From IMG/VR virus record IMGVR_UViG_3300028383_000181, positions 1-32,365 of that record: DNA of 32,365 bases; one strand, 5' to 3'. The notes under the pieces are model-generated. The model was not told where the DNA came from. It was given only the letters and a program-made list of their open reading frames with translations, and searched no databases. Positions within the stretch are counted from its first letter, which is position 1. Each line of letters begins with the position of its first letter. The DNA is from a virus. Positions 2,668-30,958 of this stretch are shown here, piece by piece. Position numbers and translations under genes: made by a program.

Positions 2668-2875
2668 CTGACGCCGAATAGCGTCACCTGACGCCGAATA
2701 GCGTCACCTGACGCCGAATAGCGTCACCTGACGCCGAATAGCGTCACCTGACGCCGAATAGCGTCATAGCGTCACCTGACGCCGAATAGCGTCACCTGAC
2801 GCCGAATAGCGTCACCTGACGCCGAATAGCGTCACATGACTCCGAATAGCGTCACATGACTCCGAATAGCGTCAA
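2668..2875 (+). repeat. Tandem array B: ten copies of a 20-bp dyad unit
   Basis: The unit CTGACGCCGAATAGCGTCAC contains the inverted pair TGACGC and GCGTCA around CGAATA. Copies begin at 2668, 2688, 2708, 2728, 2748, 2776, 2796, 2816, 2836 and 2856. The fifth is followed by a 9-base partial duplication (2767-2775), and the last two are variants beginning ATGACTCC, which weakens one arm. There is no spacer sequence between units. The half-site CGTCA/TGACG is shared with array A, so one protein may bind both. Confidence 0.9.
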
Positions 2876-2879
2876 CGGA

Positions 2880-2898
2880 TGGTTTAATATTAAACTAA
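2880..2898 (+). promoter_or_regulatory. GTTTA-N4-TAAAC palindrome, left copy
   Basis: TGGTTTAATATTAAACTAA contains the 14-bp perfect palindrome GTTTAATATTAAAC (2882-2895). A near copy occurs at 4477-4495 on the other side of the three-gene cassette, keeping the TAAACTAA flank. A shared element at both edges suggests a site for one regulator or a boundary of the cassette. Confidence 0.6.
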
Positions 2899-2900
2899 TT

Positions 2901-2982
2901 ACCAGGACGAGCTGGATCCGGACATCGGCGACCAGGACGAGCTGGATCCGGACATCGGCGACCAGGACGAGCTGGATCCGGA
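2901..2982 (+). repeat. Tandem array C: 30-bp unit, about 2.7 copies, with GATC
   Basis: Exact 30-base units start at 2901 and 2931 and a partial third at 2961. Each holds GCTGGATCCGG, so a GATC falls at 2915, 2945 and 2975. One frame could encode an acidic 10-residue repeat, but an in-frame stop just upstream and the absence of a start argue against translation. It lies between the left palindrome and the cassette promoter. Confidence 0.85.
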
Positions 2983-3012
2983 TAGTATTTTTGCTTTTCT
3001 CAATTTTATCGC

Positions 3013-3041
3013 TTGACGTTATAGGCGGGAACGCCTATCTG
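3013..3041 (+). promoter_or_regulatory. Cassette promoter with overlapping operator
   Basis: TTGACG (3013-3018) and TATCTG (3036-3041) are separated by 17 bases, a good -35 and a weak -10. The spacer holds a perfect 7-bp dyad, ATAGGCG-GGAA-CGCCTAT (3021-3038), reaching into the -10. A protein bound there would block the promoter, so the cassette beginning at 3077 is probably repressed. The regulator is not identified. Confidence 0.55.
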
Positions 3042-3076
3042 TTTCCTATCGCAACGCAAGACAAGGAAACGCTCCC

Positions 3077-3379
3077 ATGTTCAATAAATTCGACTTCGAC
3101 GCCGCTACACCTGAAACGCTAGCCGACCGTTTGGGCGAATTGGAATCGCGCAAAGCAGCAATTCAGGATGAAATCGACGCCACCAAGGGCGCGATTCTGG
3201 AAAGCGGCACCAGCAAGGCCAATGGCAAGCGTTATGCATTCACCGTTGTTGCCGCAACAGAACGCGAATCGTTCAGCAGTAGCAAGGCAAAGGCAATGCT
3301 TTCCGCCGCGCAGATAGCGGCCTGCACGTCCATCTCGCAGGTCAAGGCCAGCGTGCGGATCCGGGCGCGCAAAGTATAA
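3077..3379 (+). CDS. Small helical phage protein, first gene of the cassette
   Basis: A 100-aa protein with AAGGAAA (3063-3069) upstream of ATG. Residues 10-45 form a likely coiled helix (ADRLGELESRKAAIQDEIDA). A basic strand (GKRYAFTVVAATERESF) then leads into KAMLSAAQIAACTSISQVKA and a very basic end (VRIRARKV). The pattern ATxRExF...KAxLsxxQIAACT...VRVxAR is one I recall from small phage hypothetical proteins of unknown role. It shares the promoter at 3013 with the next two genes. No enzyme motif is present. Confidence 0.65.
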   Translation: MFNKFDFDAATPETLADRLGELESRKAAIQDEIDATKGAILESGTSKANGKRYAFTVVAATERESFSSSKAKAMLSAAQIAACTSISQVKASVRIRARKV

Positions 3380-5544: not shown

Positions 5545-5740
5545 CTTCTATCTCCTTGTACATCACCACCCGGCGCATCCCGATCCCACGAGCCACTCTA
5601 TCCGACAGGAGAAAGTGTCCGTTCAGGACGCCAGTGATCATGGCTTTCGTGACTCCGATCTGACGTGCCAACTCAGCCTTTGACCCGGCCTCGCGTGCCG
5701 CCTCCCGGAGCCGCTCCTTTGCTTCATCTTCGGTCATCAT
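5537..5740 (-). CDS. Cro/CI-type helix-turn-helix regulator
   Basis: A 67-aa protein. The start at 5740 (ATGATG) is preferred over a far upstream one because it overlaps the methylase stop as ATGATG/TGA, a coupling junction. Residues 17-42 (SKAELARQIGVTKAMITGVL) form a clear lambda-repressor-like HTH: helix, AxxLG-like turn, recognition helix with TKAMITG. The rest (LSDRVARGIGMRRVVMYKEI) fits helix 4-5 of the fold. It probably binds operators in the control region upstream of the operon (6214-6324). The small size and lack of a second domain suggest a Cro-like or accessory repressor. Confidence 0.75.
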   Translation of the reverse strand: MMTEDEAKERLREAAREAGSKAELARQIGVTKAMITGVLNGHFLLSDRVARGIGMRRVVMYKEIEDE

Positions 5741-6213
5741 ACGGACACCACCATTCCCAGCCGGCACCGCAACAGCGCGGCCAGTCCCCGGTCCCCAGCC
5801 CCAAGAAGCACTGTGCCGGTTCCAGGGCTCCCGCCGATCGACCCATCCGGCCGTTCGTACTTGACCTTCCCGGCCAAGAAGCACATCGCATCAGCCTTCA
5901 CGGCATACTCCTGGAACCACGGCGCAGATGTTCGATCAGGTACCAAAGCGATCCCGTTTCCATGTTCGAAGAACTTCTTGAGCCACATCCTCTTGTGGCG
6001 CTGGTGACCGAAGGGCGGGTTCATCCAGACAAACCCAGTCCATTCAGCATCCAGCCCGTTTGCTCCTTCATCGAGCCACATGTCACAAGGGACATACCGC
6101 GGACCACCCCACGGCGCCGCCACGTCCATATCGAACCTACAGCCCAGCGCGTCGAAGATGAACTTTGGAGTGTACCACTCGTTGCTCTCACCGGCTTTTT
6201 CATAAGCAGCCAT
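5737..6213 (-). CDS. dam: Phage DNA N6-adenine methyltransferase (Dam family)
   Basis: A 158-aa protein; ATG 6213 is chosen over the TTG at 6216 because GAGGAG lies 6 bases upstream of the ATG. The N-terminus has NEWYTPKFIFDALG and FDMDVAA, then FVWMNPPFG near residue 63, the NPPF catalytic loop that corresponds to the DPPY motif of adenine methylases. LVPDRTSAPWFQEY and the final FLAGKVKYERPDGS follow. Length and motif order match phage Dam-type enzymes (PF05869), which methylate adenine, typically in GATC. It is the first gene of a three-gene - strand operon. The nearby GATC-dense arrays (4363-4475, 2901-2982) are possible targets; that link is inference. Confidence 0.85.
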   Translation of the reverse strand: MAAYEKAGESNEWYTPKFIFDALGCRFDMDVAAPWGGPRYVPCDMWLDEGANGLDAEWTGFVWMNPPFGHQRHKRMWLKKFFEHGNGIALVPDRTSAPWFQEYAVKADAMCFLAGKVKYERPDGSIGGSPGTGTVLLGAGDRGLAALLRCRLGMVVSV

Positions 6214-6324
6214 CAAACTCTCCTCTCTTGCATTACACCAGATGTTTACACCTACTAAATCACACTTGCAAGAACTTTCGCATTATGCAAGAAAGTAATC
6301 GTCAAATCCGGATATTACTACGAC
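6214..6324. promoter_or_regulatory. Divergent control region with CTTGCA half-sites
   Basis: This 111-base AT-richer stretch separates the - strand methylase operon from the + strand HTH gene. It holds CTTGCA at 6227-6232, the palindrome CTTGCAAG at 6265-6272 and the inverse half-site TGCAAG at 6286-6291, the last two forming an inverted pair. These are good candidates for operators of the HTH proteins encoded on either side. No -10/-35 pair is convincing enough to call. Confidence 0.5.
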
Positions 6325-6528
6325 ATGACGACTGATACGATCACCCCGATCCTGCGCACGGCCTTTCCGGGCCAGCGCAGCCCGATCCCGCAAGCGGCCG
6401 AGTGGTTCGACGTGGACCAGTCGACGATCTACAGATGGATCAAAGACCCATCGTCAACACCTCGGTACGCCCTGCTGCTTCTCGCCTACCTCGATCTGCT
6501 GGGGCCTGTTCCGCCGTATGACCAATGA
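6325..6528 (+). CDS. Small HTH protein preceding the terminase
   Basis: A 67-aa protein. PIPQAAEWFDVDQSTIYRWI (residues 21-40) is a helix-turn-helix whose recognition helix carries DQSTIYRWI, and SSTPRYALLLLAYLDLLG adds a closing helix. There is no visible ribosome-binding sequence before the ATG, so a leaderless or weakly translated start is possible. Its stop overlaps the terminase start (ATGA, 6525-6528), which suggests translational coupling. It could be a regulator acting at 6214-6324 or a minimal DNA-recognition subunit for packaging; its size is far below usual small terminases. Confidence 0.65.
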   Translation: MTTDTITPILRTAFPGQRSPIPQAAEWFDVDQSTIYRWIKDPSSTPRYALLLLAYLDLLGPVPPYDQ

Positions 6529-8933
6529 TCCACGACGCACTCACAGAACATCTGACAGCCGTACACAACGGCGAGATCACCCGCTTCATCGCTACCATAC
6601 CGCCTGGACCGATGCGTGATGACTCCATCGTCGAGACATCTCGTGGATCTAAGCTGTTGCGTGATATCACCACAGACGATCACGTCCTGACACATACGGG
6701 CAAATACCGACCGGTCACAGATGTCCATGACCAAGGCACTTTGCCCATCCTGGAAATCAAGACCTTCAGCGGTCGCACGGTCCATGCCGCTCCGACACAT
6801 CCGTTTCTCACCCCCACTGGGTGGGTTGAGGCGCAACGTCTGCGGGTGGACGATAACCTCGCGGTCGTTAACCCTCAGCAACCCCGCGATGAATGCGAAA
6901 TTGCACCGGAAACTGCGCGTCTCCTTGGGTATATGGTGGGGGACGGTTCTCTTCGAAGTGCTACCCCTGCTTTTACCAACATGGACTATGATTCCATTCA
7001 GGATTTCATAGAGTGCCTGAATTTTCATGGCTTCGAGCATACGATATTGAAGCGGAAAAACAGGACTGCTTGGGTGGTGAATGTACGAGGAGGTCGTCCT
7101 GTCCATGAGTTTTTCGCATCATTTGATTTGATGTGGAAGGGAAGCTACGAAAAGCACATCCCAGACCAGATCAAATCGGATGGAACGGAAACACTCCGTC
7201 ACTTTCTCGGTGCATACTGGTCTTGTGACGGTTCCCTAAACATTCGCAAGACCCACTCCCGTGGGTCTATATATCGAGCCCACGCAACGACTGTATCTAA
7301 CCGGTTGGCTCAAGATCTCCACTACGCTCTTACTCAGTGTGGAATTGAATCCCGCATTCGCATCAGAACGAGCAATACCCTGAAATCCAAGCGTCAGAAT
7401 ACGGGTATCTATACCTACTACCAACTTGAAATACAGAAAGAGGAACACACTGCGCATATTCTCGATCTGCCGGGGCTATGTCAGCGGAAAGCGCAATATC
7501 GTGATCAACTGAGGAAGAAATTCACCCGTGTGACGTGGGAAGATCCGATCATATCTATCGAACCCTCTGAACCTGCGCGTTGCATGTGTTTGACAGTAGA
7601 CACGGATCACTCGTTCACTTGCTCAGGTATCGCGGTCAAGAACTCGACCAAATCTCTGACCACGCGCGTCTTCTCTCCGGTCTGGGGGTGGCTGCAGAAT
7701 CCACACTCCCGGTATATCGGGGCTTCCTACGCGCACCATCTCTCGACACGGGACAATAGGCGGGCCCAGCAGCTGATCACGTCGGACTGGTTCCGTCAGC
7801 GCTTTCCTGAACTCAAGATCGACCCCCGCCGGCAAGCGGTCGAGAACTTCGGCAACAATCAGACCGGCTGGATGCTGGCAACCTCGGTTGAAGGCATCGG
7901 CACCGGCGAACGTGGCGACCAGTTCGTGATCGACGACCCTCTCAGCGCCAAGCAGGCCGACTCTCCGACGTACCGCCAAGCTGCGCTGAAATGGTTCTAC
8001 GAGACCGTTCCGTCGCGTCTTAACGATCTCGACTCTGGTCAGATCCTGATCATCATGCAGCGTCTTCATGAAGAGGATGTGGCCAATGCGGCGATCGAAC
8101 TGGGCTACGACCACCTCAACATTCCCATGCACTTCGACACCGAGCAGATCCGCAAGCCCACCTCGATCGGCTGGACAGATCCGCGGACCAAACATAATCA
8201 GCTGATGTGGCCTGAGCGATTCTCCGAGAGCGCCGTCATAAAGCTGGAGCAGTCCCTCGGACCTTACGCATCGGCTGCGCAGCTCGAGCAGACACCAGTT
8301 CCCCGCACCGGCGGTCTGATCGAGACGGACCTGATAATCATGAAAGAGCAAGCCCCGGCGTCCATTATGGACCCGGACAACCCGAACATCATCCGGGTTC
8401 GGGCATGGGACTTTGCCGGGTCGAAAGGTAAAGGCGCCTATACCGTCGGCGCGCTTCTGGCCACAGACATCACCGATCCGGATCGGTCGCTGTATATTCT
8501 CGATGTCCGCCGGCAACGCCTGAACCCGGCAGGGGTCCGGGCGCTGGTCTCGAGCACCGCAGAAGATGACCCACCGGGGACGGTAATTCTGTACCCGAAA
8601 GACCCTGGTCAGTCTGGGTTGGACCAAGTCCAGTCATATGCTACCCTGCTCGAAGGATACTCACACAAGGCAGAGCCACAGACAGGATCGAAAGAAGAAC
8701 GAGCGGAACCTTTTGCAGCCAAGGTCGGTGCATCTCAAGTCTATCTTCTCGAAAAGGGATGGACAGATCACTATAAACAAGAACTTCGCTTTTTCCCGAA
8801 AGGGAAGTATAAGGACCAAGTCGATGCCACGGCATCCGCGTACAATGAAATCGCAAGGCGACTGCGTCATAAGCGAACCCCGGAAGTGCGGCTGGTATCG
8901 GAGTCGCAATCGAATAGAGCGAAGGTGAACTGA
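6525..8933 (+). CDS. terL: Terminase large subunit, interrupted by an intein
   Basis: An 802-aa precursor. Removing residues 29-373 leaves 457 aa, a normal TerL. Joined exteins give IPPG-STKSLTTRVFSP, a proper Walker A, followed by SRYIGASY. Walker B is FVIDDPLS near residue 467. The nuclease half has RAWDFAGSKG near 626, a DPGQ segment and a final YKDQVDATASAYNE, matching the metal-binding acids of phage terminase nucleases. The N-extein has only 28 residues; a stop just upstream (6519) excludes a longer start, so the usual adenine-binding N-terminus is missing. The enzyme pumps DNA into the prohead using ATP and cuts concatemers, docking on the portal encoded next (1-base overlap). Confidence 0.93.
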   Translation: MIHDALTEHLTAVHNGEITRFIATIPPGPMRDDSIVETSRGSKLLRDITTDDHVLTHTGKYRPVTDVHDQGTLPILEIKTFSGRTVHAAPTHPFLTPTGWVEAQRLRVDDNLAVVNPQQPRDECEIAPETARLLGYMVGDGSLRSATPAFTNMDYDSIQDFIECLNFHGFEHTILKRKNRTAWVVNVRGGRPVHEFFASFDLMWKGSYEKHIPDQIKSDGTETLRHFLGAYWSCDGSLNIRKTHSRGSIYRAHATTVSNRLAQDLHYALTQCGIESRIRIRTSNTLKSKRQNTGIYTYYQLEIQKEEHTAHILDLPGLCQRKAQYRDQLRKKFTRVTWEDPIISIEPSEPARCMCLTVDTDHSFTCSGIAVKNSTKSLTTRVFSPVWGWLQNPHSRYIGASYAHHLSTRDNRRAQQLITSDWFRQRFPELKIDPRRQAVENFGNNQTGWMLATSVEGIGTGERGDQFVIDDPLSAKQADSPTYRQAALKWFYETVPSRLNDLDSGQILIIMQRLHEEDVANAAIELGYDHLNIPMHFDTEQIRKPTSIGWTDPRTKHNQLMWPERFSESAVIKLEQSLGPYASAAQLEQTPVPRTGGLIETDLIIMKEQAPASIMDPDNPNIIRVRAWDFAGSKGKGAYTVGALLATDITDPDRSLYILDVRRQRLNPAGVRALVSSTAEDDPPGTVILYPKDPGQSGLDQVQSYATLLEGYSHKAEPQTGSKEERAEPFAAKVGASQVYLLEKGWTDHYKQELRFFPKGKYKDQVDATASAYNEIARRLRHKRTPEVRLVSESQSNRAKVN
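6609..7643 (+). mobile_element. Intein with LAGLIDADG homing endonuclease in TerL Walker A
   Basis: Residues 29-373 (345 aa) of the terminase precursor. Splicing block A is DDSIVETSRG; block B surrounds THPFLTPTGW; the endonuclease motifs are LLGYMVGDG (133-141) and FLGAYWSCDG (227-236), both with their catalytic aspartates; block F is CMCLTV (353-358); block G ends GIAVKN before Ser374. The N-terminal border is set by restoring the PPGxxKS motif. On that basis residue 1 is proline, not Cys/Ser, and the penultimate residue is lysine instead of histidine. The element is probably mobile through the endonuclease, which would cut intein-free terL genes at the Walker A codons. Confidence 0.88.
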
Positions 8934-29421: not shown

Positions 29422-30423
29422 ATGGTAACTCTCGTCAACCGCGCAAAAATGACCACCGCCACCACTGGTACAGGAGATATTGATCTTGGGTCAGCGGTTG
29501 ACGGGTACCAGTCCTTCTCCGCTGCTGGTGTAGCGGATGGTTCTACTGTCCGTTATGTGATTGAAGATGGCAGTAATTGGGAGATCGGCACTGGTGTTTA
29601 TACTGCCAGCGGGACAACGCTGACGCGGACTGTCCTTGAAAGTTCTAACGCAGACGCGGCTATTTCCCTTAGTGGGACTGCTCAGGTGTTCATTGGTGCT
29701 GCTGCTGATGACTTGCCTGCTGTCACTAAAGGCACACTCACCAAAACCTTTTCGGCAGGTGAGACCTCCACCATTGCTTTGTCTCAGGCTATTTCCGCTG
29801 GCGCGCCTGTCGTGAGTGTAACCAAGGAAGTGCCTCAGACTGGTGTTACAAGTAATACTTGGGACGTGGCGACTGACGGTGCGAACTATGATCGGCATGA
29901 TACTGCTGCGGCTACTACTCTGACGCCGGGTGAGGTTGGGTTTAGTGATATTGATGGAAGTTCTTACGATTCTGTGTCGTTTAGTGTATCTGGTCAAGAT
30001 AATTCTCCCGAAGGCATAGCCTTTAATGATGATGGCACTAAGATGTACATGGTTGGGCAGAGTAACGACTCAGTCTTTCAGTATTCTCTTTCTACAGGCT
30101 TTGACCTAAGCACAGCTTCTTATGATTCAGTATCCTTTAGTGTAGCTTCTGAAGATACTCTCCCCAGAGGCATAACCTTCAATACTGACGGTACTAAGAT
30201 GTATATTGTTGGGGGTAGTAGCAACTCAGTCTTCCAGTATTCCTTATCTACAGGCTTTGACTTAAGCACAGCTTCTTATGACTCAGTATCCTTTAGTGTA
30301 GCTACTGAAGATGGTTCTCCCACAGGCATAGCCTTTAATACTGATGGCACTAAAATGTATATGGTTGGGTATAGTATCGACTCAGTCTTTCAGTATTCTC
30401 TGTCTACAGGCTTCGACTACTGA
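29422..30423 (+). CDS. Tail fibre, first segment, with beta-propeller repeats
   Basis: The visible intact ORF is 333 aa. Residues 1-170 ([40 protein letters not shown]) are a tail-attachment-like beta region seen in marine phage fibres. From residue 182 come 52-residue repeats: YDSVSFSV, then EDxxPxGIxFNxDGTKMY, a VG and [17 protein letters not shown], three copies, DNA period exactly 156 bases (29962, 30118, 30274). FNxDGTKMYxVG is typical of beta-propeller blades in the lactonase/YncE style. The frame ends at 30423 because about 41 bases expected of the repeat are missing at 30416-30417; the propeller continues in the next frame. Confidence 0.75.
30318..30416 (+). repeat. 99-bp segment repeated exactly at the window end
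   Basis: Bases 30318-30416 are identical to 32267-32365. The first copy ends exactly where the reading frame breaks, and the second ends exactly at the last base of the window. The copies are inside the fibre propeller repeats. Confidence 0.9.
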
Positions 30424-30958
30424 AGACGGTAGCCCCTACGGCATAGCCTTCAATACTGATGGCACTAAGATGTATATGGTTGGGTCTATTAACGACTCAG
30501 TCTTCCAATACACAGTACCCTCTTCCGAAGCCCTTGTACTCGGCACAGGCTCCTTCGCCTCTACAGACGTAGGTAAGACCATCGAAGGTAATGGCGGGGA
30601 AGCTATTCTTACGGCGACTGACGGTAGCTACAGCCTTGTGACTGCGTTCAATGATACGAGTACTATTGCGTCTGGTGACTGGAGCATGTTTGCTACGGTG
30701 TTTGATGCGACGAATGGGTTGGAGTTGAGTGGTTTGGTAGGGGACGGCTTTGATATTGATGGTGCGAGTTATGACTCAGTGTCATTTAGCGTAGCTTCTG
30801 AAGATACTGCCCCCACAGGCATAATCTTCAATAATGATGGTACTAAGATGTATATGGTTGGGGGTTTTAACGACTCAGTCTATCAGTATAGCCTGTCTAC
30901 AGCCTTTGACCTAAGCACTGCTTCTTACGACTCTGTAAGTTTTAGTGTAAGTCCCTAG
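30417..30958 (+). pseudogene. Tail fibre, second segment (frame-shifted continuation)
   Basis: In frame 2 the propeller continues from the break: [20 protein letters not shown], then a distinct non-propeller region (ALVLGTGSFASTDVGKTIEG, YSLVTAFNDTSTIASGDWSM) and another blade ([20 protein letters not shown]). It ends at TAG 30956-30958, where a deletion of about 14 bases in the usual repeat changes frame again. It has no start of its own; ATG 30344 lies in the wrong-frame part of the previous segment. It is a continuation broken by repeat deletions, either real or from assembly. Confidence 0.65.

Follow-up and report, generated by a model that had tools for sequence, protein, structure and literature searches.

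The gene for the terminase large subunit (TerL) in the analysed window (the whole stretch of DNA under study, a 32,365-base virus record) is interrupted within its ATPase loop by an intein that begins with proline. Taking the available comparisons together, we consider it likely that this element is a splicing, homing-endonuclease-bearing intein that employs class 3-type chemistry, and its removal from the precursor probably starts with an internal cysteine. The element belongs to a family of inteins (with Pro at residue 1, Phe at B:12, Cys at F:4 and Val at G:5; hereafter the Pro1-Phe-Cys-Val family) that, judged by its residues, shares traits with each of two established intein classes. What is unusual is that a large family lacks the Trp and Thr typical of class 3; its core is class 1-like, and the window intein is inserted at a shifted site.

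Intein borders and anatomy in terL

Pfam searches of the insert in the TerL open reading frame (ORF) returned weak matches to Intein_splicing (below the cut-off) and PT-HINT. Removal of codons 29-373 leaves a 457-aa TerL (...IPPG-STKSLTTRVF...), and this product can be aligned, gap-free through the junction, to the TerL of Shewanella phage S0112 (...VPPG-CTKSMTTSVF...; 38%, E 5e-109), which has no intein. This extein match fixes the borders and Pro1, and the family alignment agrees with them independently. An N-border at another position was ruled out, as moving it in either direction would leave the Walker A region of TerL with a residue too many or too few. The features on which the following sections draw are (the caret marks the insertion site):

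6525..8933, + strand: terL precursor ORF, open, 802 aa (N-extein 28 aa, intein 345 aa, C-extein 429 aa)
6609..7643, + strand: intein P1-N345 (codons 29-373), at the G^S site in the Walker A stretch IPPG^STKS, placed by the spliced extein and family alignments
6609..6611, + strand: Pro1 codon CCG (ORF codon 29), at the N-scissile junction
6798..6800, + strand: His64, block B:10, invariant across all inteins of the tree set
6804..6806, + strand: Phe66, block B:12 (ORF Phe94); Trp in WCT class 3, Phe being the commonest class 1 residue
6921..6953, + strand: first LAGLIDADG motif, LLGYMVGDGSL (sequence; Pfam LAGLIDADG_3)
7203..7238, + strand: second LAGLIDADG motif, FLGAYWSCDGSL (sequence; Pfam LAGLIDADG_3)
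7581..7583, + strand: Cys325, block F:2; among the family codons read, Cys in 49/51 and Thr in both Asp1 members
7587..7589, + strand: Cys327, block F:4 (ORF Cys355), proposed first nucleophile; Cys in 51/51 non-redundant family members
7635..7643, + strand: Val343 (G:5, ORF Val371), Lys344 (G:6, ORF Lys372) and Asn345 (G:7; ORF codon 373, 7641-7643)
7644..7646, + strand: Ser+1 of the C-extein (ORF Ser374), proposed second branch point (spliced extein alignment)
7644..8930, + strand: TerL C-extein with the Terminase_6C RNase H-like nuclease domain (Pfam; extein alignment)

Two LAGLIDADG motifs, with the aspartate kept in both, mark the insert as a LAGLIDADG homing endonuclease intein. AlphaFold2, run on the window precursor fragment with 31 relatives as alignment, predicted an intein fold joined to a LAGLIDADG domain (mean pLDDT 84.5). 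The Foldseek matches of the window model in the PDB included the LAGLIDADG inteins TliVMA and PI-SceI, as well as the class 1 mini-inteins of Npu DnaB (TMt 0.85) and Ssp DnaB (up to 0.84).

A first-pass annotation of this DNA had placed an intein at 6609-7643 in the terminase, with the Walker A motif restored upon its removal, proline as residue 1 and no nucleophile at that position. The placement is confirmed by the gapless alignment of the spliced product to S0112 TerL, while Pro1 is borne out by both the extein and the family alignments; the ORF residues Phe94, Cys355, Val371, Lys372 and Ser374 are as it had given them, the aspartates of both LAGLIDADG motifs are intact as it had stated, and the fold modelling that it had suggested as a check returned the intein and LAGLIDADG architecture described above. 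Overall, the observation was confirmed and the interpretation attached to it was partly supported (see below).

The TerL start lies 28 aa before the intein, and the protein is about 50 aa shorter than S0112 TerL (window 6325-6608); the start overlaps a small HTH-like ORF (6325-6528) via ATGA. No remnant of the usual TerL N-terminus was found in the three frames upstream of terL. The ORF that adjoins terL on the minus strand (5737-6216) resembles, by eye only, phage N6-adenine methyltransferases. A single near relative of the window phage was found (L002, 98%), the sequence of which starts downstream of the intein.

A family of proline-first inteins in P-loop proteins

Over its full length the insert can be aligned with TerL inteins from jumbo phages of Caulobacter and Brevundimonas (E to 7e-23), a match that, like the predicted fold, shows that the resemblance to inteins is no accident. 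In these relatives the annotated or readable residue 1 is Pro, accompanied by Cys F:4, Phe B:12 and Val G:5; the TerL intein of Mesorhizobium phage Cp1R7A-A1 carries Asp1. Searching IMG/VR with the window intein alone returned no relative, and as a 10-row intein alignment was too divergent to serve as a search seed, we used DNA patterns on the F block and the N-junction instead. Scanning IMG/VR and the GTDB genomes with the block F pattern recovered further TerL members, other P-loop proteins and many RuvB proteins of Micromonosporaceae (junctions GPPGLGK^P...VVHN^TTLANI). Additional members are a Streptomyces locus, an acidobacterial MAG and a Pseudaminobacter TerL.

Across the 51 non-redundant members, residue 1 is Pro in 49 and Asp in two (codons CCG 27, CCC 11, CCA 7, CCT 4 and GAC 2), and the use of all four Pro codons is as expected if the amino acid is under selection. 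Position G:5 is held by Val in 50 members and Ile in one, B:12 by Phe in nearly all, the penultimate G:6 by His in 45, Lys in five and Arg in one, and the +1 residue is Ser or Thr throughout. Of the 48 members whose junction is on record, 47 have Lys at -1 and only the window departs from this (Gly); its site is therefore shifted inside the same loop, three residues upstream (G^S) of the position before the Walker A Ser/Thr at which the other members are inserted (K^S/T). The window intein carries the four residues by which the Pro1-Phe-Cys-Val family is recognised, and lacks the usual (not defining) Lys^Ser/Thr insertion. One TerL from IMG/VR (L026, ORF m1_841) contains two inteins, a Pro1-Cys F:4 type at Walker A and a Cys1-Asp F:4 type downstream, and three TerL inteins of the Mesorhizobium/Pseudaminobacter type (L006, L038, L065) have Asp1, Cys3 and Cys F:4, without the F:2 Cys.

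Pro1 or Asp1 is paired with Cys F:4 in 51/51 non-redundant members. Because this cysteine was part of the block F pattern by which most members were found, the test of F:4 is unbiased only in the N-junction and intein-wide searches. When the N-junction alone was searched, K^P at Walker A went together with Cys F:4 in 11/11 distinct inteins with a readable C-terminus (L042, L260, L263 and L264 among them were found solely in this way), and K^C at Walker A with Asp F:4 in 5/5 distinct inteins and Cys F:4 in 0/5 (Fisher p 2e-4 for the association in these samples, nominal since the members are related). Within the wider set, Cys1 inteins had Asp F:4 in 41/44 cases and Cys F:4 in 0/44. The pattern PPGHAK-Cys matched 8 contigs, in none of which an intein was detectable. 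A move of the starting nucleophile from residue 1 to F:4 would be expected to produce such a pairing between the two positions.

Many Micromonosporaceae (L055-L081) carry the Pro1 intein type at the Walker A of RuvB, and these relatives are under purifying selection: the median dN/dS of 17 RuvB inteins was 0.15 for the intein as a whole and 0.12 for its splicing domain (NG86; approximate values, given the high dS). The Asanoa genome has no strong RuvB_N match other than the interrupted RuvB, and therefore a loss of splicing should cost RuvB. The distribution of the RuvB intein is patchy, as most RuvB matches were uninterrupted in 60 other sampled genomes of the same bacterial family. An intein that did not splice would inactivate the Walker A loop, and terminase activity, as the first-pass annotation had proposed, would presumably depend on splicing.

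Class assignment and candidate splicing route

For working purposes, Hoffmann et al. 2020 define class 3 inteins by the absence of Cys from position 1 and its presence at C2:4 (= F:4) (PMC7891396). On its residues the window intein is class 3 in this sense, as position 1 holds Pro (no Ser/Thr/Cys) and F:4 holds Cys327. Two of the three positions of the WCT signature are different, with Phe66 in place of Trp B:12 and Val343 in place of Thr G:5; in a class 3 set of 1701 inteins, 6.1% deviate at the Trp and 4.6% at the Thr (PMC7891396). The Cys/Ser/Thr at position 1 that marks class 1 is absent (Pro1), and so are the Ala1, Cys+1 and Asp F:4 of the class 2 KlbA inteins (here Pro1, Ser+1 and Cys F:4).

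The earlier statement that the intein fits neither class cleanly holds for the WCT signature but not for the definition of Hoffmann et al. 2020, by which the intein is class 3 (PMC7891396). Its penultimate Lys, singled out at that time, is present and not remarkable, given the family counts above (His 45, Lys 5, Arg 1) and the occurrence of penultimate Gly, Lys and Ser in mycobacteriophage inteins (PMC5050341). The suggestion that Cys355 (F:4) could serve as nucleophile was a sound guess. The intein is, however, no orphan: Pro1 (Asp1 in two), Phe B:12, Cys F:4 and Val G:5 are common to the family of 51 non-redundant sequences.

Class 1 inteins (e.g., L155 and L162 at Walker A, and L151 in a mycobacteriophage portal gene) resemble the family in having Phe as the commonest residue at B:12, Val as the commonest at G:5 and the same F-G spacing (counted from F:4 to the closing Asn, 18 residues for the family and for almost every class 1 intein measured, against 20-21 for WCT class 3), and differ by Cys1, Thr/Ser B:7 and Asp F:4, as opposed to Pro1, Ala B:7 and Cys F:4. 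The WCT class 3 inteins (Bethlehem phage DnaB, the founding intein of class 3, Msm DnaB-1 and the TerL inteins of phages N1M2, L014, and Petp2012, L148) likewise need no position-1 nucleophile and share Cys F:4, His B:10 and Ser/Thr+1, whereas the window family is without Trp B:12 and Thr G:5; L148, a WCT mycobacteriophage TerL intein from Fromanvirus (the genus of Bethlehem), also has Pro1. With the TerL inteins of phiCbK-like Caulobacter phages (Dolichocephalovirinae) the window shares Pro1, Phe B:12, Cys F:4, Val G:5, the location in the TerL Walker A and Ser+1, and with those of CcrSC and J4 the penultimate Lys too; identity to the window is 24-28%, and their site is K^S in PPGHAK^STYAS versus G^S in IPPG^STKS. 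The AceL NrdHF intein, a class 3 (MCT) case with a non-Trp B:12 and no penultimate His, indicates that such deviations can be active, although it is split, keeps Thr G:5 and has a residue other than Pro at position 1 (PMC7891396).

By the route that we propose, His64 (B:10) would strain the Gly28-Pro29 bond and Cys327 (F:4) would attack it directly, giving a thioester branch in block F; the N-extein would be transferred to Ser+1, Asn345 would cyclise and thereby release the intein, and an O-N shift would yield IPPG-STKS. We infer class 3-type splicing from the exact restoration of the TerL Walker A, from the pairing of residue 1 with F:4, from the retention of Pro1 while its codon varies, from the purifying selection on the RuvB relatives and from the occurrence of Pro1 in the WCT intein L148; against it we count the Gly at -1 of the window, unlike the Lys of 47 other members. 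The +1 residue is Ser or Thr in all class 3 inteins but one, as in the window family, and mutants of class 3 inteins indicate that Cys F:4 is essential, that the loss of Thr G:5 can be mild and that the loss of Trp B:12 is worse (PMC5222942). An MCT intein, which has no Trp, splices well, and a Thr-to-Ala mutant was about 10-fold slower (PMC7891396).

A loss of function in the window copy (i.e., an intein that no longer splices or only cleaves, with a TerL that is inactive or complemented) appears unlikely to us. It would be in line with the Gly for Lys at -1, the Lys for His at the penultimate position, the insertion site three residues off relative to the family and a TerL start unusually close to Walker A; nevertheless, the frame is open, the LAGLIDADG Asp, His64, Cys327, Asn345 and Ser+1 are all intact, Walker A is restored exactly and a penultimate Lys/Arg recurs in other family members. 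We give very little credence to a class 2-like route, by which Ser+1 would attack the Gly-Pro bond directly and Cys327 would merely replace the catalytic Asp. Position 1 is indeed without a nucleophile, and since class 1 inteins with Cys F:4 exist (PMC3196547), this cysteine need not be a branch point; yet class 2 as known so far consists of KlbA orthologues, which have Ala1 and Cys+1 and require Asp F:4 (PMC4031507), whereas the window has Ser+1 and Asp F:4 is absent from every family member. Moreover, Ser+1 was unable to start splicing in class 3 inteins (PMC5222942). The least probable reading is that Cys325 (F:2) and not Cys327 acts as nucleophile, or that the two form a redox pair that gates splicing: a Cys at F:2 was found in 49/51 codons read, but the Asp1 members are without it and yet keep F:4, the position at which the branch forms in those class 3 inteins that have been studied (PMC7891396, PMC3196547, PMC5222942).

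Origin of the family and earlier reports

Trees of the splicing domain were inferred with residue 1, B:12, F:4 and G:5 masked, and rest on about 120 columns only. The free tree recovered the Pro1 family (98/78) and the WCT inteins (100/99) as separate groups, with the Cys1 inteins on one side (98/97), an arrangement that a single origin would fit if the tree is rooted within class 1. Constraining the Pro1 family to group with the class 1 phage intein L151 was not rejected and scored slightly better (p-AU 0.55, lnL 2 higher), and neither was grouping it with six phage class 1 inteins rejected (p-AU 0.14). Tentatively, the Pro1-Phe-Cys-Val family might represent a second, independent conversion from class 1 to internal-cysteine (class 3-type) splicing, during which the class 1-like Phe B:12, Val G:5 and F-G spacing of 18 were kept, a scenario that we regard as possible and somewhat short of even odds. 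If it held true, class 3 chemistry would have arisen at least twice, and neither Trp B:12 nor Thr G:5 would be required for it. Being a natural group in which class 1-like residues occur together with Cys F:4 and position 1 offers no nucleophile, the family would reveal which parts of WCT are dispensable, and its hosts are conserved P-loop enzymes (TerL, RuvB), in which a failure of splicing should inactivate the ATPase.

Neither Pro1 nor class 3-type splicing is new. Gill et al. 2012 placed the start of the phiCbK TerL intein at Pro131 and, for functional Pro-first inteins, referred to the paper that founded class 3, Tori et al. 2010 (PMC3556154); Pro1 is likewise found in the WCT intein L148. 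Our literature search retrieved no paper in which the Pro1-Phe-Cys-Val inteins are treated as one group; Hoffmann et al. may list such sequences in their supplementary table.

Elsewhere in the window, the short ORF 2856-3122 encodes a tandem TRTSWIRTSA repeat. Two ORFs (29422-30423 and 30344-30958) overlap in different frames and carry the same repeat in both; the overlap within 29422-30958 possibly reflects a frameshift inside an array of repeats, or an error of assembly close to the end of the contig.
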